The position numbers were made by a program, and so were the translations under genes. This document shows, piece after piece, positions 5,293 through 59,314 of a stretch of 64,000 nucleotides of DNA. Below the pieces are notes generated by a model. It was not told where the DNA came from and ran no database searches. It saw only the letters and a program-made list of their open reading frames with translations. Where the stretch lies: NCBI GenBank assembly GCA_015227615.1, contig JAALGZ010000012.1, positions 1,272,810-1,336,809 of the forward strand. Direction: 5' to 3'. This stretch comes from Labyrinthula sp. Ha (taxonomy: Eukaryota > Sar > Bigyra > Labyrinthulida > Labyrinthulaceae). The number at the start of each line of letters is the position of its first letter. The stretch's first letter is position 1.

Positions 5293-6185
5293 TTACGCAG
5301 CATTCAACTGTTTGGAATGAAATTTAATATGATCTTCCACAAAACTTTGGATGAAGAAATAGCTGTGATCATACCCTTCCTGGAAACGAAGATTCAGATC
5401 GACTAGATCTGATTGCTCACAAGCAGCTTGCAAATTCTCTGGAAGGAGTTGCTTTTTTATGTAAAACTCATCATCTGTTCCTTGATCAACCAGAATCTCT
5501 ATCTTCTTGCCAGCATAGTTAGAAATCAACTTCGTCGCATCATAATCTTCACCTTCCTTTGGATCATTAAAATACTGGTTAAACGCATACTTACCCCAAG
5601 GACTTTCTGATGGATTACTTATTGGTGCAAAAGCACTAACAGAGATAAATCTATCTGGACACTTAAGGGCACAAATTAGCGCTCCATGACCTCCCATACT
5701 ATGACCAAAAACACTCAACCTAGAAATAAATTAGACTACGCAAGAAACTTTGTGATATTTATTCTGTCTTTAACAAGAGGATCTGTAGCAAGAAGATTTG
5801 GAATCTCCTCCGTAACGTAGGAGAACATGTTGTAGTAAGGCTTGTACAGTTCTTTTGTAGCGTTGATGTAGAATCCAGCACCTTGACCGAAATCGTATCT
5901 CTCCTCATCTGGAACAGAAACCTCTGTTGTAGATCTCGGAGAAGTATCTGGAAGGATAAGAGCTATCCCTTCTTCTGCGGCATATTTGAAAGCACCAGCT
6001 TTTGTTACAAAGTTTTGATCTGTGCAAGTGAGTCCAGAGAGAAACATCAGTGCAGCAGGGAGTGCGTCAGCAGAAACTGGTGGAAAAAATATTGAAAACT
6101 TCATTGGTGTAGATGTTGATGAAGATTTGTGGGAAAATTGTTCGACGATGCCACCGAACACCTTCTTTGAACTTAGTTGTTTCAT
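5293..6185 (-). CDS. S-formylglutathione hydrolase (esterase D)
   Basis: Exons are complement(5749..6185) and complement(5293..5719). The 29-nt intron 5720-5748 (GT...CTAG) restores the frame exactly. The product has 287 residues, close to the family length of about 280. It hydrolyses S-formylglutathione to formate and glutathione, the second step of glutathione-dependent formaldehyde detoxification in the cytosol. The nucleophile elbow GHSMGG has Ser153. The acidic residue lies in DQGTDD near residue 228, and the catalytic His264 is in YDHSY. Other family blocks are SGLTCTD (residues 50-56), DTSPR (80-84) and SAFAPI. The intron falls just before the nucleophile elbow. The gene converges on the SDR gene with a single base between stop codons, so the two 3' UTRs must overlap. 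Confidence 0.95.
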
Positions 6186-6439
6186 TTTCCAGCTGCTGTT
6201 GGATTTTTTTCAGTATTTCCTTCTTTTCCAAGTTCTTGATATAGCATTACTATGGATAACTAAAAAGAATATATATTTGAGAGATGGATAATGCACTCTG
6301 GAGTTTCCCAGTCTGACATCTCATTGGCTCAATTTTAAATTTCCGAAAAAAATAAATACAAAATAAAAAATAAGAACTAGTACAAAAGATAAATGTTCAA
6401 GGATCAGGGAAGATCGATTCAAACACAGAGGAAAAGGGA

Positions 6440-6880
6440 GAAAAAAATGAAAGCCTTTATCAATTTAGTCAAGGTATATTTTTACATCTTCTCTTCACTT
6501 TAGATTACCAAAAGCAACATTTTATCAAAGTTTTAACTTGGGCTCAAAGGGTGATGAGCGAAATTTAAAAAATTCCTTTGTGTTTATGGTGAGAGCTATT
6601 TATGGAGCTGGAAGACATGCGAAACAGTCAAAATACATGTTATTCTATCAAAACAATGCTCAAGTTTATAAAAAGAACGTTGATTTCAAGACATGAAGCA
6701 TGGATCTAGCAAACAAAAACCAGAACTAACGAGTTCTCTTTGTGTTTATGATGAAAGCGGTTTATAGAGCTGAAACATGTTTATTTATACTGAAACATGT
6801 AAAACAACTGTCCAAATTTAAAGAAAGAACGCTTTTTCAAGATTTCAAGCTTGGATCAAGCAAATATGAATTAAAGAAAA
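6440..6880 (+). repeat. Diverged tandem repeat, about 160-bp unit
   Basis: Two recognisable units start near 6573 and 6734. Each opens with a CTTTGTGTTTATG phrase, runs through GAGCTG and CATGTTATT/CATGTTTATT, and ends in TTTCAAG...TGGATC.AGCAAA. A third, more decayed copy of the unit's end (ATCAAAGTTTTAACTTGGGCTCAA) lies near 6520-6550. The units differ at many positions, so the duplication is old. Unit 2 runs into the start of the MGS-like frame. Confidence 0.6.
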
Positions 6881-7005
6881 GCATCCTTGGTTTCTTATCA
6901 AATAAAGACCCCAGGCAAGATCTCATCCAAACTGCAGATCTATTGGTAAGTCTGGGGTTTTCTGCATGGAGTGCAACAGGTACGGAGCTGTTTAATTATT
7001 TTTAG
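6748..7005 (+). pseudogene. Possible relic of a methylglyoxal-synthase-like domain
   Basis: The first ATG in this frame is at 6748, giving about 85 residues. The C-terminal 40 residues have the pattern of the MGS-like regulatory domain of carbamoyl-phosphate synthase large subunits. ILGFLSNKDPRQDLI resembles the GvllSv.dkDK strand and helix, and LVSLGFSAWSATGTELF resembles the LaeLGF.i.ATgGT block. The N-terminal half lies in the tandem repeat and matches nothing. No other CPSase sequence is visible nearby and the frame ends at 7005, so if the resemblance is real this is an orphan fragment. It may also be coincidence. Confidence 0.3.
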
Positions 7006-8733
7006 ATTTGAGTTCAAGAAAAATCCAAAATAACAAATAAGAAAATTAATAAAAAATTCAACTTAAGTGAGTGGGGTTCAGATATCAATAGGTATTTTTT
7101 TTAGTTTCCGTAAATAGTTTGCAGGACAAGACAAGTATAGAAACAAAGTTAAGTTCATAACTCAGAAGGTAAACACTTTTTCAAAGTACTTTTAGTGAGC
7201 AGAGGGTGGGGTTTAGATTATTGTGTAAAGTTGTTACTCGCTGATTCTATTTTCAACATCTTAAGTGGGAGATTTTGGGTGGTCAAACTTTCAATTTACT
7301 TTCAATATCTTAAGTGGGAGGGGGGGTAGCTTATCAAAAAAACACAAAAAAACATGGAGTTCAAGGTTTTGGGAAAGTACGTTAAGAGATCTTCAACAAA
7401 AGGAATCAGACTTAAGCGAGGTACACAAGTTTCGAATATTGCTTTATGTACACTGCTTCCAAAATTAAACAAAAATTCCCAGATAATTACTTCCAGCAAG
7501 AACGAAGGAATCATAGAACATGCAGAGCATACTACAATGCATCACATGGAATTGTTTCGCCTCTGGGGCGATGGTTTTGGATCCTTCGCTCATTATTGCT
7601 CTAGCACTTCCCAACCTAAGTGCTTTGAGGTCGTTGAAAAACATCTTGGCCCACTTGGTCTTCATAAATATACAGTAAAAATGTGCTCATAATACAATCA
7701 GTACCTGTGGAAAGTATAACAAGCATCGTGTAATACAAAATATCGTGTGCCATATCTGTTTGAGCACAGTCAGAATAGAAACAGGCAAAGTGCTTCTGTA
7801 TATGTTCTTGAAGAGTTATCCTATTTAATTGTGCTTGATAATTTGTAGTCTTGTTAAATTTGATCTTATAATTTCGACCTTTAACGATAGATCTTTCATT
7901 ACATTGCATTAAAACTTTCAAATTTGTATCTCTTGTGTGTTTTAATACATACCCTTCATCTCTCTTCTAACCATATGATTGTCAAACAAAATGGCAGGGA
8001 AATTCCTTGAAAGAGTCGATTCTGTGCTGCTGTTATTTTTCTGTGCCTTCTTAAGTGTGTGAATGAAGTTTATTAGATGATCAGTGGGTTCTAGAACGTA
8101 TTTTTTTCTTTATTTACATCAGTTTTCGACACATGTTCAAAGTGTCTTATGTTAGTTCTAAGGACAGTGTAGACCATTCTTGCCAATTCAAACTTAATGT
8201 TTCCCTCAAAAGGAATAATTTTGTTAGTTGCGCATTTTATTCTGCATCTATTGAGTTCTCTACTATCTGAAAGAAATCCTTTCTGTGCATCAACCTTCGA
8301 AACGTAGTCAGGGCTTTTCTTAGACACCTTAAATAGTCCTGCAACATACTTTTTGTTTCCCCCACCATTTAATCAACTGAAATAGTTCTCTACAGGTTAC
8401 AACAGAGATAAAAACTGTTTTTTTTTTCTAAAGAGCTCTTTTTTTGTGTTTTTGTGTTGTTTGTTTTGATTCTTGTGTGTTTATGTTCGAAATTGTGATT
8501 TGGTACTTTTGTGTTTCTTGATTGCCCAAAATATGATTAAACCAATCAAATCATTTGGAATGAAACACTCCCGAATAAAAAAACGACCCCAATATATTTT
8601 CAGATCTTCTCATAAGGGACAACAACCTTAACTACAACTATATGACAAGTTGGACATTATAATTCACCTTCAGAGATTTTTATTGATAAAATTAAAGTTT
8701 TTGAGTTTAGAATTTATAAGGAGAACAAAAACT

Positions 8734-9387
8734 ATGAGCTATTTTCACAAGAACCCACCTGCGGATGAACTAAGGAATTTTGTACTTGACCGGCTGAAAG
8801 CTGAGTTTGATCATTTCACCCTACATGATGTCAAGACGATAATTATACCTGATGAACGACCAATAAAATCATTTCCTAAACAGGGAAGTTGTACAGAAGC
8901 GTTTAATGAGTACACTGATTGGCTGGCCGGAACAGACCCTTTGACATGTGTTTTAGACTTTCTAGGTAAAGTTCTCCTTTCCATAGTAGTCTCTATAACG
9001 CTTGTAGTAATAAGTCCCGTGAACCTTCTTGCTATTTTTGATGAGTTTATATGGGGAACAAAAATGCAAATTCGCATCGGTTTCGTTAGAACAAGCTACG
9101 TCGTTGTAAACGAAGGTGTATTCATCTACCAAACAGAGTTGAAGCGGTTTAAATGTATTGATTTTTTAGCCTGCTTATCAAAAGATTTATATGTTCACCA
9201 AGCTGAAGCGATTCGTTATTGTCAATGGGTAAATAATGAGGTGCACAGAGCTGATGAACAAGAGTTTCCAGAAAGATATGGGTTTACTAACTTTTTGATA
9301 GGTACAAATAGCTTCTTGCTGAAGGATGAGCACTTTCAAGTTTTACAAGAAAGTAGAGAGGCGTGGGTACATTCTCTGGATGTATGA
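8734..9387 (+). CDS. Uncharacterised protein with a hydrophobic hairpin
   Basis: The frame gives 217 residues from the first ATG, at 8734; the open frame extends upstream without another ATG. I do not recognise the family. Residues about 76-103 are strongly hydrophobic (LLSIVVSITLVVISP) and probably form one membrane segment or a re-entrant hairpin. The flanking regions are soluble-looking, with an N-terminal charged helix and a C-terminal stretch rich in Glu and aromatic residues. Base composition and codon use look coding, unlike the surrounding intergenic DNA. It converges on ECH1, whose stop is about 130 bp away. No signal peptide is visible. Confidence 0.65.
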   Translation: MSYFHKNPPADELRNFVLDRLKAEFDHFTLHDVKTIIIPDERPIKSFPKQGSCTEAFNEYTDWLAGTDPLTCVLDFLGKVLLSIVVSITLVVISPVNLLAIFDEFIWGTKMQIRIGFVRTSYVVVNEGVFIYQTELKRFKCIDFLACLSKDLYVHQAEAIRYCQWVNNEVHRADEQEFPERYGFTNFLIGTNSFLLKDEHFQVLQESREAWVHSLDV

Positions 9388-9521
9388 AACTCCATGGTTT
9401 TAAAGTTGGCGTCCAGTTCCTAATAAGCTTGCTGGTAGCTAAGGTGTTGATTTATTTGCAGAACTTCATAGGGAGAAAGTTCTTTTAAATAGCAACTGGG
9501 AAATAATTTCCCACTGCAAAG

Positions 9522-10482
9522 TTATAATTTAGAAAATTTAGGCTGTGCCTTCTTTTGCAAAGAAGCCAAAGCAGCTTTTTTTATATCGTTCGTCTGCAAC
9601 ATTCCTCCACTCCAAGCAACCTGATACTTCAAACTATTCTCCACAGTATTCTCTCTGGAGTAGTTCAAGTTTACTTTTGTACCTACTATAGCAATGGGAG
9701 ACTTGGAAGCTATGTTGAAAGCAATCTTCTTTGCTGCTTCTAACATTTCATTCTTCGTGCTGAATTTTTGCGATACAAATCCACTACGCAAAGCTTCGTC
9801 TGCTGGGAACTTTCTGGCAGTGTAACAAAGTTCTCTGGCCAACGAACTAGATCCTAAACAGTGATGAAGCCTTTGCAAAGTTCCTAAATCGGCACAAAGT
9901 CCAATGTCAACTTCCTTGATACAAAACCAAGCTTCATCTGAACAGAAACCTAAAATAAAACTATATTAAAAGTTCACGAATATCTGCTGCGCAGGCTAGA
10001 TCCACAGCACCACCTACAGCAGCACTATGGATACAGGCTATAACGGGTTGAGGGCATCTGAAACTCAAAAAACAAAAATATTGTACTTTTCCATTGCCGT
10101 CAAACTCTCTTGTATTGTGGCCAAACCAACTTGGCTACTGTACACCTGTCTTGCTGGGTCCAGTGCCTCTTTCTTTGGTTCATCAGATAGTAAAGAAGCT
10201 CCCTTTAAATCTAATCCAACAGAGAAGTATTTCCCATTTCCAGATACGATGATAACTCGTACGGTTGTGTCGCGAGCAAAGGTCTGAAAACATTCCCTGT
10301 ACTCTCTGAAGAACGCATCATTCATAGCATTACCCTAGAGCTTAATTCTGAAACTGTTTTACTTGCTTCTCTCTATTTAATTGAACATGAGCAACAGAGT
10401 TCTCTTCTCCCAAAACTGTATTGTAAGCATAGAATTAACAGATACATTCTACTTTCAAGGTATCAAACTTGTATTCAAACAT
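9522..10482 (-). CDS. ECH1: Peroxisomal delta3,5-delta2,4-dienoyl-CoA isomerase (ECH1-like)
   Basis: Five exons: complement of 10446-10482, 10363-10415, 10087-10334, 9978-10057 and 9522-9949. The introns are 30, 28, 29 and 28 nt, all GT-AG. The spliced frame has 281 residues and follows ECH1 from end to end. It is a crotonase-fold enzyme that isomerises 3,5-dienoyl-CoA to 2,4-dienoyl-CoA during beta-oxidation of unsaturated fatty acids. The active-site acids are conserved: Asp132 in GGAVDL, Glu152 in IKEVD and Asp160 in CADLGT. The C-terminal tripeptide is SKL, a canonical PTS1, so peroxisomal import is expected. All four introns lie in the first half of the gene. The 37-nt first exon was found by frame restoration (MFEYKFDTLKVEF). 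POLE3 lies 110 bp upstream on the same strand. Confidence 0.93.
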
Positions 10483-10592
10483 TTTTTACTTCTGTAATTT
10501 TGATTTGTCTAAAACGGACACTTTCGTATGGATAGGAAATAATGAAACGAAACAAAAACGAGGAGCTTAGGCTTCAAAACAGAGTTATGGTA

Positions 10593-14496: not shown

Positions 14497-15247
14497 TCAG
14501 CCTTCACTGTCCATTGCGTGTTCTTCTTCATCCTCTTGTTTCACATCTAGGCCAACTCCAGCTGCTGAAAATTAAAGTGTATATAAGAAAGGTACCTTCT
14601 TGTGATTTTTCAACCAGTTTCGAAAACTCTCTCAATGGAAGTAAAAGATCCGATCTTAGTTTTTCAAGTTCAAAAGCCGCTGCATTTTTTAGACTAAATA
14701 ACAAATAGAACACAATTAGTACGTCAAGAACTTAATCAAGTTGGTTGCTGACTGTTCAGAAGCAATTTTTCCCAAAGAGTTTCTTATTTTGTTATCTCTT
14801 ATATCTGAAATATCAAAAATAGCACTTTTGATTTCGAAAGCATCCTGAATGTCACTTCCAGCATAATTCAATAATAAGTGGGCAATTTCCTTATAGTAGA
14901 ACGGTATAGGCTGCAATTCAGAAATGCCACTATTTTTTTCCTACCATATAAAGGTAGAAATAAAAGTTACCCTTTCTTTCATAATTTTCAAATTTTCCAA
15001 CGAAAACCATTCAGGAGCTTTGATACTACACTTGTTTTTCTTCTTTAGATATATCGCCAGCCAAAGTGGTACCTCCACTGGAACTTGAACTCTGAAGGGA
15101 CCAAACTCTCCTTGAATGAACCTGATTTTATCACTGTTGAACTGAGGTCTAAATAATAAAAGTATACTTTTTTTCTTACATGATTTGAATTATTTCATTT
15201 TCACAATAGAATACATTGTTTGAATTTGACCGTTTGTTTTGTTTCAT
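14497..15247 (-). CDS. GINS2: GINS complex subunit Psf2
   Basis: Five exons: complement of 15180-15247, 14971-15148, 14732-14940, 14596-14693 and 14497-14564. The introns are 31, 30, 38 and 31 nt. The spliced product has 206 residues (human Psf2 has 185). Psf2 is part of the Sld5-Psf1-Psf2-Psf3 ring that joins Mcm2-7 and Cdc45 to form the replicative CMG helicase. Family blocks appear in order: IIPQF near the N terminus, GEFGPFRVQVPVEVPLWLA, then KCSIKAPEW. PIPFYYKEIAHLLL and the ISDIRDNKIR helix follow. The C terminus is acidic (QEDEEEHAMDSEG), which is common in this subunit. The 38-nt intron is the longest in the window and contains TACTAAT, a good branch-point match. The ATG at 15247 is in frame and lies 47 bp from the divergent thioesterase start. 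Confidence 0.92.
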
Positions 15248-15294
15248 TCTTAACCGTTTTTGTTCCCAAAATCTATCCGTTTGGAAGCGACGGA
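15248..15294. promoter_or_regulatory. Inferred bidirectional promoter / 5' leader
   Basis: The start codons of Psf2 (minus, 15247) and the thioesterase (plus, 15295) are separated by only 47 bp. Both 5' UTRs and at least part of both promoters must therefore overlap each other or the neighbouring coding region. No TATA or initiator element is obvious. Confidence 0.4.
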
Positions 15295-16092: not shown

Positions 16093-16165
16093 AAGTAAAC
16101 CGTCCTTGGAAAATTAGTAGCTTGGTCGTATGCTTATATTTCCACTCTAGGTTGGGCAGATACTA

Positions 16166-17740
16166 CTACCGTCTATGCAGAAAGTGTTCATGAAGTAGCT
16201 GATTGATAAATAAAATAAAGAAAGGTACTTTATACATCCATCGTGGAACTGTTAACTCCTGTTTAAACGTGTTACGAACCTTTGCAAAGTAAACTTTAAT
16301 TGTATCCTTGCCTAGAAGCGAAGCCTCAGGCTTCTGAAGGTGATCTTTGATAAGCAAAATTGTAAAAAAGATAATTGCCCAACTTTGAAAGATTTGATAA
16401 ACATCCATATCAAGTTCATCTGTATCTTTCAGCATAAAACGAACAGTTGGACTTATATTTTTCTTGCTCTTAGTGAGAAAGGTGTGAATAACTGAATCTA
16501 ACCCTGTTTGAACCCAGAACTTTCTACTTCCTTTCAAAAATGATTTTGAAGATAGTTCTATGTCACCATCTTTGTCTGAGAACTGCATGGTAGTATTGAG
16601 AAAGGTAAACTGTATATCAATACTCTGATCAATTCTGGCTGATATGTTTTCTACAAAGTTCTCCATTTGAGCTTCATCAGTATGACACAAGTTTATAATG
16701 TTTTCTCTATAGTAAATATACTTTTCAAAAGATAGTCCCTTTGCCCAGTTTTCTTCATCATCCCCTGCTCCGGGATAATATCTCCAACTTCTAAACTGCC
16801 TATTATGTTTCCTTGGCACGTTTGCAACGGAGGCGCTGTAGCATAGTATGCCAAAAACAGGGCTATAATCTTCCTCAATAAAATTGGTTTCTTCAAGAAC
16901 AAAATTTCTGGATGTAACAGGATCATGAAATGAGTCTACATAATTATCCTTGGCATACGGTTCTGCAGCTACAAAGAGTGGAAAAAGTGGATGCTCAAGC
17001 GACTTGATTTGAGAAAGCGCAATAGCATCTGAAGCCTCCAGATGTTTGCGCAAAATTACTGCATTTTCTTTTATAAAATCTCGTATAGAAGGTTCATGAA
17101 AACGAACCCAGGAAGGAAACTGGGGAAATGCAAGCTTTTTCCAGGCACCGGAGTTTTTCTTAGTAGAACTGAGGTTGATGGAGGCACTATTTATTACAGC
17201 ACTAAATTTAATGTTCAAAAAAACTTGTACCACCAAATGGGTATTGTTTTAGAAAATGAATCGGGATAAACTTTACCAAATCGAGTTCTAAGAGTATAGT
17301 GTAAGACAAGGAGTACGCATCCACAACGCAAGCGGCGCGCTTAACAAAATCGGGTAGAAGGGAAAATTCTTCCGTTTTTCTATCGGGTTGAGACATGAGT
17401 CTATTAAGAAGATTTAGGTTGAGTCTATTGAGTGAAAAGACAAGATTATCTAGAACATAAACACAACATATGACATACTTTGGTGACCGTCGGTTGATTT
17501 AAAATAGGTGGTTTCACACCCAGTATTCCTCGAAAACCATTTTCCGTTCCTCAAGTTCATCAAAACTGGTATATTTGGAATCCATGCAGTTCGAAACTTT
17601 TCTAAATTACTCTGATCCAAGTCTAAGGATAAGAACCTTTCCCTTAGAGAACACTTTCTGCCGCTCAGTTTGTTGTCCATACATCTGGTAATGCAACATT
17701 GATTTAGTACGAACTCAGTTTTTTGGCCACTTGGCCTCAT
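16166..17740 (-). CDS. RIT1: Initiator tRNA phosphoribosyl transferase (Rit1)
   Basis: Five exons: complement of 17479-17740, 17317-17449, 17231-17287, 16229-17201 and 16166-16198. The introns are 29, 29, 29 and 30 nt. The spliced product has 485 residues (yeast Rit1 has 513). Rit1 adds 2'-O-ribosyl phosphate to A64 of initiator tRNA-Met, which keeps it out of elongation. Restored signatures are YFKSTDGHQNNLVFSLNRLN (residues about 79-98), then VVDATRFGKVYPDSFSKT and TIPIWC (146-151). PGAGDDEENWAKG begins near residue 294. The C-terminal DUSP-like part is more diverged. The last intron is 30 nt with no stop, so retaining it would only insert ten residues; I favour splicing because the result, PRWMYKLLHEHF, fits the family's C terminus. 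This family occurs in fungi, plants and some protists. Confidence 0.9.
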
Positions 17741-25506: not shown

Positions 25507-28500
25507 ATGAACTTAGAGAAAGTTAGGATAAAAGATGAGGCTAGAAGGATTGTTTCCGCTTCCACGAAATACTATGGCATATCATATCGTTTAAAAACCG
25601 AGGAGACCTCTCACGAGTGTCTATTGAAAGGAGTTCAGGGAACAAACACACGTCTTTTGGATTTAAAAGAAAAGGTCAAATACTTGCAGAAAGAAATGAA
25701 GGATTCTAAAAGATCAAACAGAATTATTCATAAAGGGGTATCTCAACAATATATTGCCAATGAAATAAAAAAAAAATCTCAAGTCAGTATATCTGAAGCA
25801 ACATTTGAGTGTCCAAAGTGTTGTCAGCAAAGACTTGGTAAATTTCAAGAAATCCATGATGCTACTTGCACAGGTGTCTCAAAAGATGACAGTTCTATTC
25901 CAGTGCGTAAAAGTATTCTTTGCTTTCAAAATTTTAGTTTATCTACAAAAAGAGCTCGAGGTAAGCTGCTCGTAGAATACAAAGTTCGTTCTGGTGAAGA
26001 GTTATCCGAAGAGTTTTTTGGCTCAATAGTTCCTTATCCAATACAAGATCTTCAGATGTTTTATCAAAACAAAAAATTGATTTTTCGCTTTCAGTTACCT
26101 GATATCATAGGTGTGAGATTCGGAAACTTGCTTAATTTCCTTATAGAACTCGAAATCTTCCTGTATATAGATAAACGCAGATCAAAACTAATTAAATCAA
26201 TTGGAACTAAACTCTTCACACTGACACCGGTTAGACTTAGTAAAATTGTAGTTTGTGAAGTTCAAGATTTTCAATTGAGCAAAAGCCGATATGGGTATAA
26301 AATTGCTGTGTCTATTACTGCGTTAAACCTTGTTGCTTTCAGTGTGCCTTTAACTAAGGAAATTAATCTGGATCCAAGCAATGAATACATTATAAAAGTT
26401 CCGCGGGAGCTCCAAGTTGGTCCGATTTCAAATGTTAGCATATCTCTCTCCTGGAAACAGCCTTTGAACTTACCAACTTTGACTAGTACGTTATCAGGAG
26501 AGATTCTCAACAAGGCGTTTTATAGTGCACCTTGGAAAGTTTGTTACTCTGTTCATTATACGAAAAGAATAATTATTGAAACAGACACTAAGGAAAGAAA
26601 AGAGTTGTTTAAGACTTTCAAACACTATTGTTATAAGGAAAGATTTGTGATTGAAAAATTGCTTCCAGACGAATCAGTTTCACATATATTTGTCAGAGCA
26701 GTTGTTTTGGTAGTCGATGATTTGAATAATGTAGAAAATCCTAAAGTACGGGAAATAGTGAGTGAAAAGTCAAATGTTATTTCTCTTGTTAGAACTAAGA
26801 AGGATATGAAGCGTTATTATGAGTTGAAGAACGAAATTAGATCTGTGAAACGGGCAAGTTTGGTATCTAGTCATTATAATACTGTCCAGTATACACCGAA
26901 GGTTCAACAAAGAATTGAGATTAAGCCACTGTTAAATTTTTTGCAAAGGGAATTTAGTAAAGTGAAAAGAGAGGTGAAGGTGGTAAATGCATTCGAGAGA
27001 CGAGAAAACCCAATAAAAAATTTTACTTACGAAATTCAAACACTAAATAAACACAGAAAGAGTTATCTAGCGAAAGTTCTCACTAGGAATAGTAATTTTG
27101 AAAAGTGTGGGTTCGATGTTGGAGTTCGAAGGAAACATTTTGACAAGAAAATAAGTTCCTTGGAGAAGGAACTAACTGACTGCCAGGTTTTCCTGGACAG
27201 AACCCGTGTACAACTGGAAACTGAATCATGCAAATGTTTTGAGTTTTCACATAAGGTATCCAGGTTTGTTGAAGAAATAGGGAAGATAAGTTCAGAGGAA
27301 CCAAATACGGTGGTGCAATGTGGATTGGCCAATTATAACCAGAGTGAGAGTAAATGGGGCTATTTATTTAAAGTGAATGATTGTAAACAATATCTTGAAA
27401 CTATGGTTCAGAATTATAACCATATTCTTGAGCAATCAGGAGACAAAAGTTTGAAGTTGTTAGAAAGGAAGTCAATGCTACAGAAAAAGCTCAAGTGTGT
27501 GGAAGAAAAATTAAGAGAAAGAAGAGCAAAGTTATTTCAATTTAACCTGACCTTTAAAAAGACTTCGACAAAAGATAAACTTGAAGTTATTAATAAAAGG
27601 ATGCTTTCCACATTTTTTGTTTTGTGGCAAAATAAGCTGGAAAGTTTTCAGAAAAACCGCTTTATCTTACGGAAGTTCTTGTTCAAAATAGTTTTGTTCA
27701 AAAAATATGGTGCTTTTAGAACATGGAGAGATGCGGTTGTTTACATGAATCAAGTTGCGAATCTTTCTCTAACCAATAAATTTTTCCATGACCAACAACT
27801 TTTGGTAAACTCTGTCAAGGATACGCTAGTATTAGGTGATTTCAAGGTTGCCAAATCCCTGACAAAAATCACCGGTAACCCAAATACTATTCTAGAGTAT
27901 TTTACCAAAGCAGGCGAAGATATGTACCGACTATTGCTTAATAATATATTATAGGAAAATCAGGGAATCTATTCAAGCTGCCCTCGTACTCTGCAAGCAT
28001 TTTTTGAAGAGAAAACGATTTGACTTTTTGTTTTACTTAAATAGGCTTAAGTTTTTATTCTGGAACAAATATCTTTGCAAGAGTAATTTATTAGAAGAAG
28101 AGTATCATGTTCTCAAGTTGAAGGCATTGCTCTTGGAGATGAAGTTTCTCCAGCATAGTAAGGAAGACTCAAGTTTAATTGAAGGCAAAATGAGAAAAGA
28201 AATGTTATGTTTGGAAAAATGTAATAAAATTTTATATAGAAGATACAGTATCAAACTTAAACAGACATCGGGGGAAAAGTCACAGAGGAAATTTTGGGTG
28301 AAAAAGTTTCCTAGTGAAGAATCAGAGCTAGAAAGAAAAAGAAGACTCGTATGTTTGTCGTTACATGGAATTTTACTTGGCGAGGAATACTCTTGTTTGG
28401 AGGAAACACTTAAAAAGGTTAGAATAACAAAATGTAGGTTAGAGAAAAAGATCGAAAACTTTAAGGAGATTGAGAAATGTCGAGTTAATGTGCTTAATTC

Positions 28501-30070
28501 TATTGGAAAACATTCAAAACAGGTTGCGACATCTGCAGTACACGGCGGTGGTGTTCATCAATTGTTCCATGGAGCTCATTTGGCTCCCATTTTTGAGCGT
28601 TTAGAAAAAGTAGAATTAACGCAAAAGCGACAGATCGAAAGTTCTTTGTCGGAAGTTACAATGAAAATTAACAACCATCAAGCACGTTCTGTGGAAATCG
28701 AGAATTTGGAGTCAATTAATAAATCAGAGGTTGTTACTCAGATTAAATCCAAACACAGAGCCTTAATTTTGTGCGTGAGAGTTCTCTACATATTTTCAAG
28801 TGCACATGTGATAACCATTTCGAATACTGCAATATATATTTTTCTGAAAGGTATTACCATCTACCCAGTATATGTAATCAACCTTCCTAAGATAAAACAG
28901 CAGGTGATAGAATTAAGAGACAGAAACTTAAGTAACTTTCCCATACTAGAAGACGAGAAAGTCAAGAAAAATATTACGCTGGAATCTATTGATCATTTCT
29001 TGAAACATGACAAAGGTTATCATGTACTTGAGGTATTTGAAAATTCCCATTTCATGCTTACTGTGCTTAAGAGTTATGTAATCTTAAAATACTTAGTATC
29101 CAGAACAAACAAAAAGCACTACACTGTCAAATTAACTGATATAAGAACCTATAAACAGTCTGCACAAAGTTGTTCCACCGCAGCGACATTAAAAAAAGAT
29201 TTGCTCTTTATTGCTAACTCATTTGGCACCATTGATGTTTGGAGCTGCGAAGAGCTCCTGATGGTCTTCACGGTCCCAAGTAGTCTTGAAAGTATTTTTT
29301 CAACACTACTTTATGTTTCTCGATGGAATCAACTTGTAGCTGGTAATGTCAATTCTAAAATATATTGGTTCGACATCAAAGTAGAGGCAGGATCCTGTTT
29401 GAAAAAGATGAGCAGATTTATGAATTGGACAACAGCAATAAGAAAGAAAAGTAAGATTAGCAGTGAACCAAAGAATAATCGACTCACGGTCGCAGAACAG
29501 GAAGCAAAGGAATTCACCAGTGTATACCAAAAAGAGCAAAGATTGCTTTATAAACGACAATTAATTTATCGCTGTCGAAACCAACAAATGAAGAAAATAG
29601 TTGGAGACCACGGTTTGAAAGGTAAACCAGGCTTGCAAACACTCTCATATCATGAATCAAGTATTGTTTCTTTGGCCGAACAGTTTGGACACATGGTATC
29701 ATGTGAGGTCAACGGCGTTGCTCTACTTTGGGGGTTCCAGGAAAACTGGGTCCCCATTCTCAAATTTCAAGTGCATTGGAGAGAGTGCCCTGCAAAGAGT
29801 GCATCTAGCAGCTTAGTCACGGCTGTCGCAATTAATTTGGTGTTCTTGGCAATAGGAACATATTTAGGCAGAATTCATGTGTTCATACTGAATTCAGGGG
29901 TGGTTTTAAAAAGCTTCTTGATTAATTTGGCACAAAAACCGGTAGTGGGTCTTTTCTTTTTTGCGAACACATTATTTGGAGTCAATGAAGATGCGGAATT
30001 TATGTTTTCAAAGTTAGATCTTGGGCAGGTAACAAATCTCTCGAAAAAGACAAAACAGCTGACAAGATGA
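25507..30070 (+). CDS. Large multidomain coiled-coil / WD40-like protein
   Basis: Two exons, 25507-27923 and 27955-30070, joined by a 31-nt intron (GTACCG...TATAG). The product has 1510 residues. The second frame has no ATG near its start, so it is a continuation, not a separate gene. I do not recognise the whole protein. In order it shows coiled coil (about 48-70) and a C2HC-type zinc finger (Cys102, Cys105, His117, Cys121). A beta-rich stretch with fibronectin-III character follows (about 300-440), then more coiled coil (about 470-690). Next is a region rich in spaced F..W motifs (about 700-745; FFVLWQNKLE, AFRTWRDAV), like Sfi1 or IQ helices. The C-terminal third has WD40-like blades: FIANSFGTIDVW, LVAGNVNSKIYWFDI and MVSCEVNGVALLWGF. 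A cytoskeletal or centrosomal scaffold is a guess from architecture only. Confidence 0.8.
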
Positions 30071-43165: not shown

Positions 43166-46100
43166 ATGCGTGCACTCCTTATTAGTTTCCTTTATCTGAC
43201 TCCAACCCTAATGAACTCACAAGAAACAGATCAAGATTGTGCATCACCACTTCATTTCAACGCGTTGCCTGGACGAACTTGCCTTGATGGATCAACCGCC
43301 GGCTTTTACTCTTCGCTAGATCCTGTTCTCTTTGACACAACCGATTTTTCTACTGTGTCGAACTACGTGATTTGGCTAGGAGATAGCGAATTATGTGAAA
43401 ATCAAGCAGCCTGCAACAGTTTCTGTGATACTTCATCTTGCTCGGCAGAAGCGCTGGAAGGAACCTCGAAGTCCTTTGCTGAATTGAGCGACTGCTTTCT
43501 CCGACAACTTACCTGCAGTTCTGATAACTGGCCTAAAGTTGATGACACTTTATGTGCAGAAACAATTTTGGACGCGAGTTTTCTCTCTACAGACTCTTCT
43601 TTTTTGTCCTTTTATTTGCCTCAATGTACCATGGACTGGTTCCTTGGACAAACATCTCCATTTACAGGAAGTGAAACCTTTGAACAATTTATTCTAACTC
43701 TCGCAAGTGAAATGGACTTAGATTCTACGAAAAGGATTATATTTGGTGGAAATAGAGGTGGAGGGATAGGTGCAGCGAATTTAGTTGCTAAAATTAGAGA
43801 GAATGCAGGTCTGGAAGAGGTTCAAATTGACCTAATTCTAGATTCTAGTTTTCTTTTTCCATTCAACGAGTTTTCAGCCTCTGAAGAGAATGATCCGATA
43901 ACTTATCCGCTGTTTGATTACCTGGTTGAGAACTCTGAAGAGTGGATAGAAAATTCTTATATTGACGCTTCATGCGTTGCTGCTCTGGGGAATAACCAGG
44001 AGTCTATAGTGAACTGTCTTTATTTGGGCTTTTTATTTTCTTTTTCTGAACATTTTGCCTCACTAGAAAATACAAACATCCTAATTCTCCAATCAGAGTA
44101 TGATATTGTTCAACTTCTTCAACTAGAACTACTTGAAGATGATAAACCTGATAACTTTGGTGATGCTGATTCCTACACTGTCAACTTGTTTTCTTTCATT
44201 GAATCATTTGGATCTGCAGCCCGGGCAAATTTGAACTCGACTTTTATGCGTCATCAGCAGCTGGGAGATTCAAATGTATTCATCCTCACATCGAGCTGCG
44301 GAGTCAATTCTCCATTAGTACCAATCTCCTTAGTTTCTTTTCCTTCCTTAGTGGAAGATCTTGTTTTGGATGGCTTCACCGTTGGTTCAGTGGAACTTGC
44401 TCGAGATGGATCTGCAATATCTTCCTTGAACTTTCATTCCGCAATCGAAGCCTTCGTTAAGGCAGATTATTTAAACCCTGCCCTGGAACCATTTTCCTTG
44501 AATGCATACTATGGATCATACGCATGTAAAGGTTTTTTGTGCGAAGACACGTGCAGCCAAATTATTGAAATCACTCCTTTCACAGTGTTATTCAACTTCG
44601 GCGAGGGTTCTAGAGCGCTTGTGGAGTTGATTGGAATAGCAATGGTAGGATCAAGTTGGCTCATGTTTGTTTTTACTTACTTTCGGGCACGAAGCTTTAA
44701 ACTCTTGCACATTAGCCGGAAGTTTACTCCTAAAAAGAACCAGGATCTTGTTTATATGCTGGGAAACAGAACACATGCAATATCTCTATGCCTGAAGCAT
44801 TATCATTATTATGCACCTCCTAGAGGCGACTCAAGCCCTGTGGAAATCTTAAAAGGGGTAAACATAGCAGTTCTTCCAGGGAAGCTTCATGCTGTTATGG
44901 GCTCTTCAGGGTCAGGAAAAAGTTCTTTGTTGGATGTGCTATCAAACCTGCGGACTACGGGCTCATATACTGGAGAGCACCTCATTAATGGGGTTCCTTC
45001 TTACCTACGAAGAAGCAGGTTTTTAAATCAGTACTTGAGAAACAATATGTCCTATGTTAAGCAGCAGGATGTGTTATTCGATAATCTGACAGTAAGAGAG
45101 AGTCTTACCCATTCTGCTTGGTTAACGTTGCCGCAATCTCTCAGTGCAAATGACAAGAGACAAAGGGTTCATGTAGTTTCTGGTTTCTTAGGCTTAGAGA
45201 GCGTCATGGACACAAAGATAGGAAAGATTTCAGGTGGCCAAAAACGTAGGGTTTCGGTTGGTACCCAGCTTTTGTCACTTCCGTCTGTTCTATTTCTTGA
45301 TGAACCTACAACTGGTCTTGATGCAACGAATGCTTTAGTTCTCTGTGATCTGCTCTATAAACTGGCTCATGTGGGTAAGATGGCTATTTTAATGACAATT
45401 CACCAGCCGAGAAGGGAGATTTTTTCACTGATGGATAAGCTTTCCATTTTGGTGAATGGCAAAGTTGCTTTTTCTGGAACCCCAAATCAAGCAGCTAAAT
45501 TTTTCAGAGTTGATTTTAATGAGGTTAACATGGGTAACACTATTTTAGATAGATTAGAAGACTATACTGGTAGTAAACATGCCGATCAAGCGCTGAATCA
45601 AATATGTAAAACCTATGAGAAGAGCTTCCTAGGTCAAACAGAGTTTAATACAATTACGAAAGAAGAGAGTTATCTGACAAAGAATATGGCAAATGTTCTA
45701 GAGCAGAGGTTGAAGAAAAATGCCAAAATTAGTGGAATGTATAGCTGGAGCCGTCCGACTTCCACATTCCTGACTCTTAAAGTGCTTTTAAGTCGAACTC
45801 TACTATGGGGAGGATTTGATATTTTTCGAACGTGTTCCATAAGTTTAGTTGGTGGTCTACTTGTTGGGTCAGTCTATCTACAGTCTGCTGAAAGCTTTAC
45901 AAACATTACCTCTTTGAACTTCCTCTCTGTTGCCTCGATGGCGTTTCTTCAGGGAACTTTTCTGGGCGACAGATACCAGCTGGAGAAGGGAATGTGGTCC
46001 CATGAGACGACTGCTGGAACGCGTGTTAGCTGGAGAGCTTTCCTTTTGAACCAGTTTCTAAGAAATGCTGTGGCCTCTACTTTAGAAGCCCTTTTCTTCG

Positions 46101-46801
46101 CTGTTCCCGTATACATGTTAGTTCTAGAGCCTAACTTTGGTATGGAAAAGTTTTTTCAGTTCGTTTTTATCTTACTGCTTGTTTCCTGGGCAGTTGTTTC
46201 TCAAAACACGTTAGTGGAGATAGATCGTATCAGAGCAGGAGGAGTTTCTGGTCCGGACTTACGCCAAGCTGCTCTGATTAACATGACTCTCTTAAGTCTT
46301 GGTGTCTTGTTCAATGGGTTCATTATCCAGCTGCAAGATATTCCAATAGCCTTGTCTTGGGTACCTTTTGTAATGCTCTCTTTCTGGGGGTTTGTGGGTC
46401 TGCTAGGAACTCTGTTTAGAGATTTTTCTTTTCCCTGCGGGGTTGATGACGATCTAACAATCTTGCAATGTAGCAGAGAAACCGGAGATGTGTTCCTCAC
46501 AGACTTAGACTACGATAGCTTCGATGCCTTTCAGTGCATGACTGCCCTTCTTGCTATGATCGCAGTGTTTCATGTTTTGGGAGTTTTCGATTTTTACCAG
46601 AGGTTTATTAAGACTAAAAGTAACTTGAAGAAAGAAGATCCGAAACCGCGCCCTGGAAGAACTGACGGATATGTTGGAAATACAATGGACAAGTTAGTGA
46701 ATAGGTATTTAAAGCAAGCTGAAATGAAAGCACAGCAGGGAAAAAATAATGTAACCCGAAGAAAAAGTAATGCCTCGGAAGATAGTAGTGTCGTTGTCTA
46801 A
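43166..46801 (+). CDS. ABCG half-transporter fused to a pectinacetylesterase/Notum-like ectodomain
   Basis: 1211 residues, intronless. Residues 1-18 look like a signal peptide. Residues about 25-480 have pectinacetylesterase/Notum-type blocks: CLDGSTAGFY, IWLGDSELC, an FGGNRGGGIGA elbow (193-203) and DLILDSSF. The catalytic Ser of GCSAGG is Arg197 and the expected His (sCf.H) is Asn381; Asp313 remains. The ectodomain is therefore probably a non-enzymatic binding module. A membrane segment (about 484-507) leads to an ABCG-type nucleotide-binding domain: Walker A GSSGSGKSS (579-587), signature ISGGQ (688-692) and Walker B VLFLDE (708-713), then GLDA and a switch His in TIHQPRR. An ABC2-type membrane domain spans about 870-1160. 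The order ectodomain-TM-NBD-TMD resembles yeast Adp1 and plant ABCG24/28, which carry other ectodomains. Substrate unknown; plasma membrane likely. Confidence 0.88.
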   Translation: MRALLISFLYLTPTLMNSQETDQDCASPLHFNALPGRTCLDGSTAGFYSSLDPVLFDTTDFSTVSNYVIWLGDSELCENQAACNSFCDTSSCSAEALEGTSKSFAELSDCFLRQLTCSSDNWPKVDDTLCAETILDASFLSTDSSFLSFYLPQCTMDWFLGQTSPFTGSETFEQFILTLASEMDLDSTKRIIFGGNRGGGIGAANLVAKIRENAGLEEVQIDLILDSSFLFPFNEFSASEENDPITYPLFDYLVENSEEWIENSYIDASCVAALGNNQESIVNCLYLGFLFSFSEHFASLENTNILILQSEYDIVQLLQLELLEDDKPDNFGDADSYTVNLFSFIESFGSAARANLNSTFMRHQQLGDSNVFILTSSCGVNSPLVPISLVSFPSLVEDLVLDGFTVGSVELARDGSAISSLNFHSAIEAFVKADYLNPALEPFSLNAYYGSYACKGFLCEDTCSQIIEITPFTVLFNFGEGSRALVELIGIAMVGSSWLMFVFTYFRARSFKLLHISRKFTPKKNQDLVYMLGNRTHAISLCLKHYHYYAPPRGDSSPVEILKGVNIAVLPGKLHAVMGSSGSGKSSLLDVLSNLRTTGSYTGEHLINGVPSYLRRSRFLNQYLRNNMSYVKQQDVLFDNLTVRESLTHSAWLTLPQSLSANDKRQRVHVVSGFLGLESVMDTKIGKISGGQKRRVSVGTQLLSLPSVLFLDEPTTGLDATNALVLCDLLYKLAHVGKMAILMTIHQPRREIFSLMDKLSILVNGKVAFSGTPNQAAKFFRVDFNEVNMGNTILDRLEDYTGSKHADQALNQICKTYEKSFLGQTEFNTITKEESYLTKNMANVLEQRLKKNAKISGMYSWSRPTSTFLTLKVLLSRTLLWGGFDIFRTCSISLVGGLLVGSVYLQSAESFTNITSLNFLSVASMAFLQGTFLGDRYQLEKGMWSHETTAGTRVSWRAFLLNQFLRNAVASTLEALFFAVPVYMLVLEPNFGMEKFFQFVFILLLVSWAVVSQNTLVEIDRIRAGGVSGPDLRQAALINMTLLSLGVLFNGFIIQLQDIPIALSWVPFVMLSFWGFVGLLGTLFRDFSFPCGVDDDLTILQCSRETGDVFLTDLDYDSFDAFQCMTALLAMIAVFHVLGVFDFYQRFIKTKSNLKKEDPKPRPGRTDGYVGNTMDKLVNRYLKQAEMKAQQGKNNVTRRKSNASEDSSVVV

Positions 46802-52432: not shown

Positions 52433-52434
52433 AG

Positions 52435-53185
52435 TTATTTGTCAGCAAGAGATGCAGCTAGTACTTGTTGAAGTATGAAGTCTTCATCTTGTTGCTCAAA
52501 CTCGTTGTAATCAACATACTCACCATATTCAAACTTATGTCGCATGTTTATATGTGAAACTACATCGCTGCTCCGATAATTTGGATCTCCCCAGGGCATC
52601 GACGCACAAACTGGACAAGTTGCACTAAGGGGTCCCTCCTTCTTGTGTTTCTTATTCAAGTGATCCAAGAGGGATTTAACATCTAAATTCTTTGCTTTAC
52701 ATTTTTTTACTGAAAACGGACAAGTAAAAGTGCTTCTGTTTTTTGAATCTTTCACTTCTGCTTCTTTCACAGCAAGCTGTTCACGTAATTTCTTAGTATG
52801 GGCAATAAACTTTTTACATTTTGTTTGATGAGACTCTAATAGGGAAGCATCCATGGTTTTCCCACATGGTTCGCATATGGATTTTGTACTCGAAATGAGT
52901 TCTACTAAATCAGCATTTAGTGTCGCAGCTTGGAAGGGTACGCGGCAAAGTGGACATTTCCTGTCTTTCTAGAAGATGATCTATATAAGGAAAATATACT
53001 TCTTCAACACTAGTTAAGTGGCTTATACATTCTTCACAAAAGTTATGGGTGCAATTATCAAGGGAAAGTGGACGAGTGAATACTTCCATGCATATTGGGC
53101 AATTTATGTCTTGTGCAGGATCTGCCATTTCGTTCTGTTCTTTTGTTAAGTTCCGATTTGGTTCACAGATGTACTGTTTGGACAT
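52435..53185 (-). CDS. RNF114/RNF166-family RING E3 ubiquitin ligase
   Basis: Two exons, complement(53000..53185) and complement(52435..52968), with a 31-nt intron at 52969-52999 inside the RING coding region. The spliced product has 239 residues. The RING finger has Cys29, Cys32, Cys45, His47, Cys50, Cys53, Cys67 and Cys70; the last two come from exon 2, so splicing is required for a complete RING. A C2HC finger follows (Cys94, Cys97, His109, Cys113), then Di19-type C2H2 fingers, with CPFSVKKC and CPVCASMPWGDPNYRSSD being diagnostic. A C-terminal ubiquitin-interacting helix (DEDFILQQVLAASL) completes the RNF114/125/138/166 architecture. A second in-frame ATG at residue 20 is a possible alternative start. 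The substrate is unknown. Confidence 0.93.
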
Positions 53186-56100: not shown

Positions 56101-58029
56101 GAACCTTTAAAAACTGGCCACAAGACATAGGAATAATCCGGTAATAGGATGTGGTTTGGTCATGTGACAAATTTTTTGAAATTTTGCGTAAGGTACAAAA
56201 AAGAAAAAGTATTTCGTTGTCTACTTAGCCTAGGGCCTTGTGACACGGTCCTGAATTGGTAATCAATAAACAATGCGAATGGTTGGGGAATTATCAGAAT
56301 CTATCAATAGGAAGAATATAGGCAAATTTCATATTGATAAATTATCAATAAATCAAATCCCACCCTTACTTTTAAAACAGGAATGGTTAGACAAACAAAG
56401 TCAGTTTACACTTGACTCATGTAGACGAAACCTAGCACCACGGAATAGTGAAAGAAGTGATAGAATATCAGCAGTTAAGAGAACAAGAAGATAGAAAAGC
56501 TCAAAAGTGTCCGGTGTGTACATTGTGTCTATGATACATGAAGAAAGAAAAAATGTCCTATTGCTTGCTTATAAAACCACACCCTTAGCAATACATCAAA
56601 AGGAAGTAGCTGGAAGTGAGCCATGGAATCCAGCCTTTATTATTTAATTTGCATTTAGAAGGCTCAAACATTGACAAATTTGTTAATAATCCAGGTCGAA
56701 ATCATATAAATAAAAAATTGATTAGAGGTGAAGTTGAGGTATTGCCTTCAAAATTTGAAACTTAAGGCGAAAAGTAAAAGATTTGTAACCTTTAAGAAAT
56801 GTTTGGGATTCTAAATAAAATCTTGTTAAAAGATATTGAAAAATGATCATATATACATCCTTAGGACATGAAGCTATGTAGACCTCAGTGGCTGGTACAT
56901 TTATCAGACCCTGATTAGTGTACTTTCCTCGAATGCGCCTTGTACACACATATGTTTAACTTCGAAAACAATACGGATATTTTCAGGCACCTCAACTACA
57001 TATAACTATTCATGCTTTCATTATAGGATGTAATGACTTGCTGGGGAAGTCATTTTGAAGCAGGATTGCAACACGGCAATGAACAAGTTGTGATAATGCT
57101 ATATCTGTTTTTACGACTTCGTCAAGTAAATGTGAGCTAACGACACCTTTGGTGCAATAGTGACCATGTACTACGCTGTATGCAGTTTCTCTTGTTAAAA
57201 ATTGCGAAGTTTGGCATTGAAAACCCTTCCTTCCAATATTTTTTTTCTGGTACATCATATGAACTTTACGCTTTCGGGAAAACAGTTTCAATAGTATTTG
57301 CTATTTACTGCTGATATTTTCATTACTCTTGCCATAAAGTAAAAGAATTTTTAGCATATTCGTTAAATTTTCTGAGTAAAACCAAGAGCCTCCTATTGTT
57401 AATCCTTCTGAGAACTTGAACTAGTAAGATTCACTATCAAAATGTGTGCTTTCCTGAGTTAACTACATTGCATAGGACCAGGATTTAATTATATGTCAAG
57501 GTTTTCTTTGCTCTTCTAGGGAACTTCGGAACAAATATATTCCCACTTACGGCGTTGGAACGCTCTAGGCTTTAATGAAGTCATTGTGTTATAAGAATAA
57601 GCACCACAAAAATGGTTTGCATGGGATGTAGAAACCCACATCTTTTTTTAGTATCCTATGAACTGTTACGCAACTTCTGTTGTATTATTGGCTTCAGTTT
57701 CTTACTGGTTTCTTGAATACAAGTACCGTTGGAGCAGTAGTAGAAATACGTATTTGTTCTTGAGTGCTTGGTTTCCTTTTTTCTGACCACCCACGCTAAG
57801 TAACCTTACATGAACTACAACGTACTCTGAAAGACTAATACTGTGTCAAAACTCACCAGCAGTCATCATAACGTTTTCCTTCAGCATTTTGGGCTGGACA
57901 GGATTTTGATTTGTTTAACGTGTATTGATAGTAATGCAATAATGAGGTAAATGCCTTCATTTTGGGCGATTTGTGAGTAAATTAAATCAGACTGAAAACT
58001 TCATTGAAGATAAAAAGTCTACACAAAGA
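53186..58029. other. Gene-free tract of 4.8 kb containing a MITE
   Basis: Apart from the hAT-like element at 55899, nothing is supported. The plus frame at 53576-54019 (147 codons) is the longest uncalled one. It is Cys-, Leu- and Ser-rich with no family match and is probably chance. Minus frames at 56722-56949 and 57010-57291 also match nothing. The open frame directly upstream of Arp3 (57973-58029) has no ATG. Confidence 0.45.
55899..56368 (+). mobile_element. hAT-like MITE, copy A (470 bp)
   Basis: The left end is TAGGGGTAGGATTCAAT and the right end AATCAAATCCCACCCTTA, which form imperfect terminal inverted repeats. The flanks are CTTGTAAA (55891-55898) and CTTTTAAA (56369-56376), an 8-bp target duplication with one mismatch. 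An 8-bp duplication and a TAGGG terminus are hallmarks of the hAT superfamily. There is no transposase, so the element is non-autonomous. It is homologous over its full length to copy B in reverse orientation. The subterminal regions are full of short TTATCAAT/ATTGATAA motifs that could be transposase-binding sites. Confidence 0.82.
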
Positions 58030-59314
58030 ATGCAACGTCCAGCTGTGGTAATTGACAATGGAACAGGTTACACAAAGATGGGATACTCAGGAACCACCGA
58101 ACCAAGCTATGTGGTACCTACTTTAATCGCTACCCCTCAAGGAGACGGCCGTGTGAAGAAGAACGCAAATAGCATGCTCGGAGACCTAGACTACTACATA
58201 GGGCACAACGCACAAGATGTTTCCCGAAATTATGCAACAAACTACCCTATCAAGCATGGAATCATCGATAATTGGGATCATATGGAAAAAATTTGGCAAA
58301 GAAGTATTTTCAAGTATCTCAAGTGCGAGCCTGAAGAACATTACTTTCTACTTACTGAACCGCCTTTAAACACACCAGAAAACAGAGAATACACTGCTGA
58401 AGTTATGTTTGAAACCTTCAACGTTCCTGGATTATATATTGCTGTACAAGCCATTCTCGCTTTAGCAGCTTCATGGACTTCAAACAAGGTAAAACAAAGT
58501 GAGAGGTCATTAACAGGGACAGTAATTGATTCAGGTGATGGAGTGACTCATGTTATCCCAGTTGCAGAGGGATATGTAATAGGAACAAGTATTCGTCATA
58601 TTCCAATTGCTGGAAAAGACATCACAGCTTTTACTCAAGGAATGCTTCGTGAGAGAAAGGAGCCAATTCCATCCGATGACCAGTTTCTTGTTTCAAAGCA
58701 AATCAAAGAACAGTATTCTTATGTATGCAAAGATATTGTGGAAGAATATGGCAGATATGATAAGGATCCAGGAAAGTTTTTCAAGACTTTTAAAGGAGTC
58801 AATACAAAAACCAAGAAGCCGTGGACGTACTTTGTTAATACGAGTTTTATTCTTTAGGTGCGATATAGGATATGAAAGATTTCTGGGACCTGAAATATTC
58901 TTCTCTCCTGAGATATATAACTCTAATTATACTGAAAGTTTGCCTGATGTTGTGGACAAGGCAATTCTGGCTTGTCCAATTGATACGCGACGAGGATTGT
59001 ACAAGAATATTGTTCTCTCTGGAGGAAGTACAATGTTCAGAAATTTTGATAAGAGAGTTAAGAAGCACATTGACTCTAAGGTTCGTCATCGATTAGCTGA
59101 AAATCAAAGGAAGCATCGTGCTCTTGATCATGGTAAACCTAAACCTGTGGAAGTTAAGGTTATTTCGCACCCTATGCAGAGATATGCAGTTTGGTTTGGC
59201 GGAAGTATGTTAGCAAATACACCACAGTTCTTAAGCGTGTGTCATACTAAAGCGCAGTATGATGAAGAAGGTCCTAGAATAGCAAGACATAATCAAGCCT
59301 TTAAAGCCTTTTAG
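58030..59314 (+). CDS. ARP3: Actin-related protein 3
   Basis: Exons 58030-58826 and 58858-59314; the 31-nt intron 58827-58857 (GTACTT...TTTAG) restores [14 protein letters not shown] across the junction. The product has 417 residues (human 418). Arp3 and Arp2 form the nucleating pair of the seven-subunit Arp2/3 complex that builds branched actin networks. The nucleotide-binding loops [21 protein letters not shown] and SGGSTMF are intact, and the diagnostic stretch [18 protein letters not shown] is present. The ATG at 58030 matches the family N terminus; the frame is open upstream but has no ATG. The finding implies branched-actin functions such as endocytosis or amoeboid movement. Confidence 0.96.

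Follow-up and report, generated by a model that had tools for sequence, protein, structure and literature searches.

Uniform introns of 28–32 nt, very probably of U2 type, and an altered U6 box in the genome of a likely labyrinthulomycete

Introduction

Introns of Blastocystis, a stramenopile, are about 30 nucleotides (nt) long. Ultra-short introns are already known in ciliates, Blastocystis, mikrocytids and other organisms (PMC9505925, PMC4159000, PMC10245619, PMC5014332). The present study deals with introns of 28–32 nt in a window of 64,000 nt, which is the whole stretch of DNA that was analysed and forms the final 64 kb of a contig of 1.337 Mb (JAALGZ010000012.1) in an assembly of 50.84 Mb and 153 contigs, and with introns of the same size in genes sampled from other contigs. 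The U6 small nuclear RNA (snRNA) of the same genome was found to carry a changed box.

The host resembles Blastocystis in having very short introns; however, the Blastocystis genome measures approximately 18.8 Mb, its intergenic regions are short, and polyadenylation creates the stop codons of many of its genes (PMC4159000), whereas the host assembly is 50.8 Mb and all seven genes traced in the window end in an encoded stop codon. Given a genome of this size, whole-genome compaction is unlikely to be the sole cause of the short introns. Stentor coeruleus, with introns of 15–16 nt and a full snRNA set, shares the standard code, the uniform tiny introns and the GUA start with the host, but it keeps the U6 box ACAGAGA (PMC9505925), while the host box reads AUAGAGA and the host introns are about twice as long. 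The 16–17 nt introns of mikrocytids show the same exceptionally narrow size range, and genome size is uncoupled from functional reduction in both; 17–19 spliceosomal proteins together with U2, U4 and U6 were identified in mikrocytids (PMC10245619), whereas the host also has U1. Paramecium and Nyctotherus, with introns of approximately 25 nt, likewise have ultra-short-only intron sets (PMC5014332), but they are ciliates, and the host differs from them in lineage and intron length. A rare natural change of the U6 ACAGA box, as in the host, is found in Cyanidioschyzon merolae, in which U replaces the central A opposite +4 (PMC10581693); in the host, the C facing +5 is U. In addition, C. merolae has lost U1 (PMC8283771), whereas the host keeps it.

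Results and discussion

Introns in the sampled genes

A total of 45 introns could be collected, consisting of 15 from the window, 17 from CCT chaperonin genes and 13 from kinesin genes. All of them were 28–32 nt long (29 nt, 12 introns; 31 nt, 11; 30 nt, 10; 28 nt, 10; 32 nt, 2), and they were distributed over 21 genes on 11 of the 153 contigs (C24, C13, C66, C57, C99, C121, C88, C110, C76, C1 and C83). Length-blind spliced alignment yielded 36 of the introns and frame restoration three, while six were re-chosen among nested GT/AG pairs. The introns and their uniform length were established directly, and so were the snRNA genes and Prp8. Since U1, U2, U4, U6 and Prp8 genes are present in the genome, a U2-type spliceosome represents the best reading of how the segments are removed, and on the sequence evidence they are very probably genuine U2-type spliceosomal introns of 28–32 nt in the genes sampled.

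Spliced alignment within the window was conducted with no preferred length and a maximum of 300 nt, using structure sequences, the EukProt model P0001 and three Arp3 relatives as queries. It recovered the S-formylglutathione hydrolase (SFGH) intron, ECH1 introns 2–4, the full set of four in Psf2 and the single one in Arp3, with nothing beyond these; together with the three Rit1 introns obtained by a profile of 119 homologs, 12 of the 15 window introns were found by length-blind alignment. ECH1 intron 1 was missed by the spliced aligner, whose profile begins close to that junction. Frame restoration was the sole basis for this intron and for those of the 1510-amino-acid (aa) and RNF114-like proteins. 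The junctions are nearly ungapped in the ECH1, Arp3 and SFGH alignments, and retention of any of the 15 introns would truncate the protein, with the exception of 14565–14595, which would alter the C-terminus only.

A first-pass annotation of the window had proposed 16 spliceosomal introns of 28–38 nt in seven genes. All 16 could be located and 15 are supported, while the segment at 16199–16228 of Rit1 stays unconfirmed. The seven introns for which it had given coordinates read GT...AG on the coding strand in every case, and six of them are exact. The seventh, a 38-nt Psf2 intron at 14694–14731, was rejected: model P0001 equals the initial splice except here, where it retains KFLT, and the aligner gives 29 nt. 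The traced set otherwise fits the proposed lengths, and the true window range is 28–31 nt. The claim of ultra-short spliceosomal introns itself is supported by the 28–32 nt lengths in the sampled genes, the snRNA and Prp8 genes, a positioned branch-point-like motif and two gene models of near-zero annotation edit distance (AED). Long open frames end in TAA (19), TAG (18) and TGA (14), which agrees with the standard code.

The CCT search gave 19 matches, and eight genes were analysed; a ninth (L036) was excluded since its fit was incoherent. The kinesin search gave 30 matches, which correspond to 22 genes by our count, and nine of these were taken, chosen as split or stop-containing. Leave-one-out spliced alignment produced 17 accepted introns in five of the eight CCT genes when up to 400 nt were permitted, single genes holding up to six, and 13 accepted introns in the nine kinesin genes when up to 300 nt were permitted. 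Re-choosing changed raw gaps of 46, 36 and 61 nt to 28, 30 and 31 nt in the CCT genes, and of 25, 124 and 111 nt to 28, 31 and 30 nt in the kinesins. Alignments to CCT-beta and CCT-alpha back the changes from 36 to 30 and from 61 to 31 nt, and the other four (46 to 28 nt in CCT and the three in kinesins) are undecided. Further raw gaps, in L030, L033 and L034 (42, 57 and 24 nt), in L043 and L044 (12 and 39 nt) and in Rit1 (45 nt), were not accepted as introns; their lengths are all multiples of three, and they were taken as in-frame protein insertions. Four kinesin paralogs (L043, L044, L045 and L050) share the position of a phase-1 intron of 28–30 nt within the P-loop, which suggests an old intron.

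The aligner imposes GT–AG ends. The same 14 genes outside the window were also aligned with six alternative dinucleotide pairs. With GT–AG, 24 of 32 gaps were 28–32 nt long, compared to 1–4 of 26–33 gaps in the six swapped-pair controls, and the total score was 6038 against 5388–5563, a gain of 475–650. With the termini left free and gaps of up to 70 nt permitted, the 28–32 nt range still took in 24 of 45 gaps.

Intron anatomy

The donor site of the 45 introns follows AG|GTA, with A at −2 in 67%, G at −1 in 51%, A at +3 in 84% and a mixed +4. The +5 base was A in 15, T in 14, C in 8 and G in 8 introns, while in human genes about four out of every five introns show +5G (PMC8283771). Complementarity of the 5' splice site to U1 averaged 6.1 of 11 positions, compared to 4.4 for GT dinucleotides of the window, and reached at least 7 in 36% against 5%. 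The intron body is T-rich. Towards the acceptor, T accounts for 82% at −11 and 73% at −10, A for 51% at −9 and 56% at −8, and T for 91% at −3, which gives a TAG end. A TNA motif whose A lies at −9 or −8 was directly observed in 33 introns and was missing from 12; none of 5000 shuffles of the intron bodies attained the TNNA peak of 20. The branch-point A is probably this base in most introns, i.e., the 21st to 24th base, and the lariat would form there.

On this anatomy, the major spliceosome would recognise the intron as a single compact unit (intron definition). The exon AG and GTA may be read through U1 and U5 (the latter assumed), U2 would take the branch A at its fixed distance, and the next TAG would serve as the acceptor, leaving approximately 20–23 nt between the 5' splice site and the branch point. 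For human B complexes without structural change, the 5' splice site and the branch site are estimated to need a separation of at least about 52 nt (PMC6692369), whereas some 20–23 nt seem to suffice here.

Spliceosomal genes and the U6 box

The assembly contains three genes each for U1, U2 and U4, one for U6, and Prp8. U1 starts AUACUUACCUGG, U2 carries GUAGUA, and U4 adjoins U1. The genes for U4, U1, U3 and U2 are clustered (L023–L028), with two inverted copies on C96 (approximately 199–223 kb) and a third on C135; the U1 scores of the copies are identical and the U2 scores nearly so.

In the only U6 gene found, AUAUAGAGAAG takes the place of the AUACAGAGAAG of the Rfam consensus, and the box is thus AUAGAGA and not the canonical ACAGAGA. 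The changed base (C42 to U) is the one that pairs with the intron +5G. The rest of the U6 core is intact, as are, by eye, the telestem, a TATA-like run and the T-run terminator. Across the 50.8-Mb assembly, AYAGAGAARATTAGCATG matched this gene and no other place; the canonical ACAGAGAARATTAGCATG was not found in the assembly, and a scan of viral contigs for U6 found none. A METTL16-like gene is present in the genome. A search for RED_N gave no match here, yet the control genomes gave none either.

We tentatively propose, with somewhat less than even confidence, a joint change of U6 and the 5' splice site, in which the C42:G+5 pair and the preference for +5G would have been lost, lengths would have settled at 28–32 nt, and recognition would have come to depend on the exon AG, on +3A and on a branch point whose distance is fixed. 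A U at U6 position 42 could pair with +5A and could wobble with +5G, so +5 would be free to drift, and a larger share of the information at the 5' splice site would lie in the exon AG, +3A and the spacing. If true, such a change would represent a compensatory swap, made by nature, within a helix of the spliceosome active-site region. No variation of the ACAGA box was seen among 240 species, comprising 230 Saccharomycotina and 10 outgroups (PMC10581693), and the combination of U6 and +5 states looks new; searches of the open literature, covering articles in part, turned up no case of the same C-to-U change. A C42-to-U change together with scarce +5G would offer a natural test of how the helix between U6 and the 5' splice site sets specificity.

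It is a rather doubtful, although by no means negligible, alternative that the short introns are true while the U6 change is an assembly error or belongs to a pseudogene, or is real yet unrelated to the scarce +5G. The change concerns one base at one locus in a single assembly, and in the 45 introns alone +5A was not significantly raised (15, p = 0.10), while +5G was slightly above the G content of intron bodies (8/45, p = 0.06), as might be seen if +5 were simply unconstrained. An artefact is, however, at odds with the intact core, telestem, TATA-like run and terminator and with the lack of any canonical copy found across the 50.8 Mb. Against an unrelated change, 14 further gene-finder introns, in whose selection +5 was not used, have A at +5 in 10 and G in 1, and +5A thereby reaches 25 of 59 introns compared to 23.4% in intron bodies (p = 0.001).

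Length statistics and longer introns

A profile gene finder was run on a 264-kb stretch of contig C24. Its splice-site profile was trained solely on the CCT and kinesin introns of other contigs and ignored positions +4 to +6, and its length prior was flat between 18 and 400 nt. It predicted 16 introns at 28–32 nt, whereas the six controls yielded 0, 1, 0, 1, 0 and 0. Among introns longer than 32 nt, GT–AG reached 27 against 18–28 in the controls, i.e., no excess. A gene finder that made no use of site scores predicted 12 introns of 25–34 nt, compared to 3–6 in four controls, a weak excess. Two introns predicted in this stretch are each present twice with identical sequence, which points to recent gene duplication.

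The existence of a second, longer class of introns, hidden by a homology method that favours short gaps, appears improbable. Mostly conserved domains were examined, the raw fits contained gaps of 46–124 nt, and partial kinesin matches could conceal far exons; on the other hand, the permitted lengths extended to 400 nt for CCT, to 300 nt for the kinesins and the window and from 18 to 400 nt for the gene finder, whose counts above 32 nt equal those of the controls. The expectation of a genome-wide mode not far above 35 nt, implied by the first-pass annotation, is in agreement with the 28–32 nt lengths on 11 contigs and with the lack of excess of longer introns over controls in the 264 kb.

Independent annotation

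Protein search revealed near-identical EukProt models of Psf2 and Arp3 from the same species or a near strain, with MAKER AED values of 0.03 (P0001) and 0.01 (P0122). The quality index (QI) fields presumably denote five exons for P0001, whose name is cut at its end, and two exons for P0122, with every splice site confirmed by transcripts. In MAKER2, an AED of 0 means that the intron–exon coordinates exactly match the aligned evidence, which may be expressed sequence tags, mRNA-seq or protein (PMC3280279).

The Rit1 model P0002 is an evidence-free SNAP prediction with an AED of 1.00, in which 17288–17316 is coding and the first exons and the stretch 16199–16228 are missing. This missing stretch is probably the fourth Rit1 intron of the first-pass annotation. 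The frame stays open if it is read through, and the aligned part of the 119-homolog profile stops before it. The public Rit1 model is wrong, a warning that introns of this kind can escape gene callers; the same fault may affect further ab initio models.

It is very unlikely that the segments are eliminated at the DNA level or bypassed in translation with the RNA left unspliced, like the internal eliminated sequences of ciliates or mitochondrial byps: short, uniform, AT-rich segments within coding frames would suit such inserts, and protein data alone cannot distinguish the mode of removal, but GT–AG outscores six other dinucleotide pairs, the AG|GTA donor and a TNA at fixed distance from TAG are present, the U1, U2, U4, U6 and Prp8 genes occur, and the annotation models the segments as introns with AED near 0.

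Several observations weigh against spliceosomal introns of one short class, or against the strength of the case for them. The U1 score of 66.2 is just below the Rfam gathering score of 69.5, and the spliceosome search covered U1, U2, U4, U6 and Prp8. Transcript support consists of MAKER scores carried in protein names. The choice of kinesins favoured genes that looked split or held stops, the six re-chosen introns of the 45 were selected in favour of the common length, and the CCT change from 46 to 28 nt fits no better than the raw gap. The profile gene finder drew its coding model from the very 264 kb that it scanned; it re-found only one of the 15 window introns and is therefore insensitive. 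A plain coding-potential scan of the 264 kb gave 22 GT–AG candidates against 13–27 in eight controls with no length peak, and the finder using coding scores only misplaced several window introns (e.g., at 35, 36, 40 and 25 nt). Moreover, no stops were found in 14 proteasome matches or in the Prp8 match, which lies within a 2434-aa open frame; intron density is therefore patchy between genes.

Genes of the window

The seven genes and their introns are listed in Table 1. Removal of the SFGH intron restores an FGHSMGG stretch. The junction of ECH1 intron 1 adjoins a 2-residue gap in the alignment to 8sk6. Neither half of the 1510-aa protein matches Pfam; its intron has an alternative acceptor that gives 40 nt, and the coding-score gene finder took this 40-nt form. 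The profile of 119 other Arp3 proteins yields just the one Arp3 intron.

Table 1. Genes and introns traced in the window (positions are those of the window)
Feature	Position	Strand	Size	Support and remarks
S-formylglutathione hydrolase (SFGH) gene	5293..6185	-	287 aa	1 intron; spliced protein residues 1–286 align to 3fcx, E 9.5e-90
SFGH intron	5720..5748	-	29 nt	GT-AG; spliced alignment to 3fcx; if kept, protein ends at residue 149 of 287
ECH1 (dienoyl-CoA isomerase) gene	9522..10482	-	281 aa	4 introns; 1dci, E 7.9e-76; 8sk6 over residues 6–274
ECH1 intron 1	10416..10445	-	30 nt	frame restoration
ECH1 intron 2	10335..10362	-	28 nt	spliced alignment; ungapped against 1dci
ECH1 intron 3	10058..10086	-	29 nt	spliced alignment; ungapped against 1dci
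ECH1 intron 4	9950..9977	-	28 nt	spliced alignment; ungapped against 1dci
Psf2 (GINS) gene	14497..15247	-	209 aa	4 introns; length equals EukProt MAKER model P0001 once intron 3 is 29 nt
Psf2 intron 1	15149..15179	-	31 nt	P0001 model; spliced alignment
Psf2 intron 2	14941..14970	-	30 nt	P0001 model; spliced alignment
Psf2 intron 3	14694..14722	-	29 nt	KFLT kept in P0001; spliced alignment to P0001
Psf2 intron 4	14565..14595	-	31 nt	P0001 model; spliced alignment
Rit1 (initiator tRNA phosphoribosyl transferase) gene	16166..17680	-		3 supported introns and 1 possible; profile of 119 homologs, spliced alignment
Rit1 intron	17450..17478	-	29 nt	GT-AG; 119-homolog profile
Rit1 intron	17288..17316	-	29 nt	119-homolog profile; coding in EukProt model P0002
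Rit1 intron	17202..17230	-	29 nt	119-homolog profile
Possible fourth Rit1 intron	16199..16228	-	30 nt	ab initio only: excised solely in evidence-free SNAP model P0002
1510-aa protein gene	25507..30070	+	1510 aa	1 intron; joins 815- and 688-aa frames
1510-aa protein gene intron	27924..27954	+	31 nt	frame restoration
RING (RNF114-like) protein gene	52435..53185	-	239 aa	1 intron; frame restored; RING cysteine pattern read by eye
RNF114-like intron	52969..52999	-	31 nt	GT-AG; frame restoration
Arp3 gene	58030..59314	+	417 aa	1 intron; 100% identical to EukProt P0122; 1k8k, E 2e-165
Arp3 intron	58827..58857	+	31 nt	profile of 119 other Arp3 proteins, and also three of them; ungapped in 1k8k

Phylogenetic position and other observations

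The Arp3 tree, a quick tree with a long branch, split 28 rows including Aurantiochytrium from 93 rows including bovine Arp3 with a Shimodaira–Hasegawa-like approximate likelihood ratio test (SH-aLRT) support of 99. The host lies in a supported group of eight with Aurantiochytrium, an MMETSP row and metagenome rows, and its affinity is probably with the labyrinthulomycetes. This affinity, the U6 change and the scarce +5G are absent from the first-pass annotation. MAST-4 is a related lineage. Its reported mean intron lengths are 260 and 332 bp (PMC5269757). A literature search joining labyrinthulids with short introns gave no such report among the matches listed (best 25 of 766). An Arp3 sequence labelled Batrachochytrium salamandrivorans BASA81 (P0208) falls on the Aurantiochytrium side of the tree and is perhaps a contaminant or a mislabelled stramenopile.

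Searches of the window with Rfam at gathering scores and with ARAGORN (bacterial code) gave no match. On the forward strand at 43166–46801, a 1211-aa open frame fuses a pectinacetylesterase domain with an ABC transporter (ABC_tran and ABC2_membrane), which is an unusual combination.

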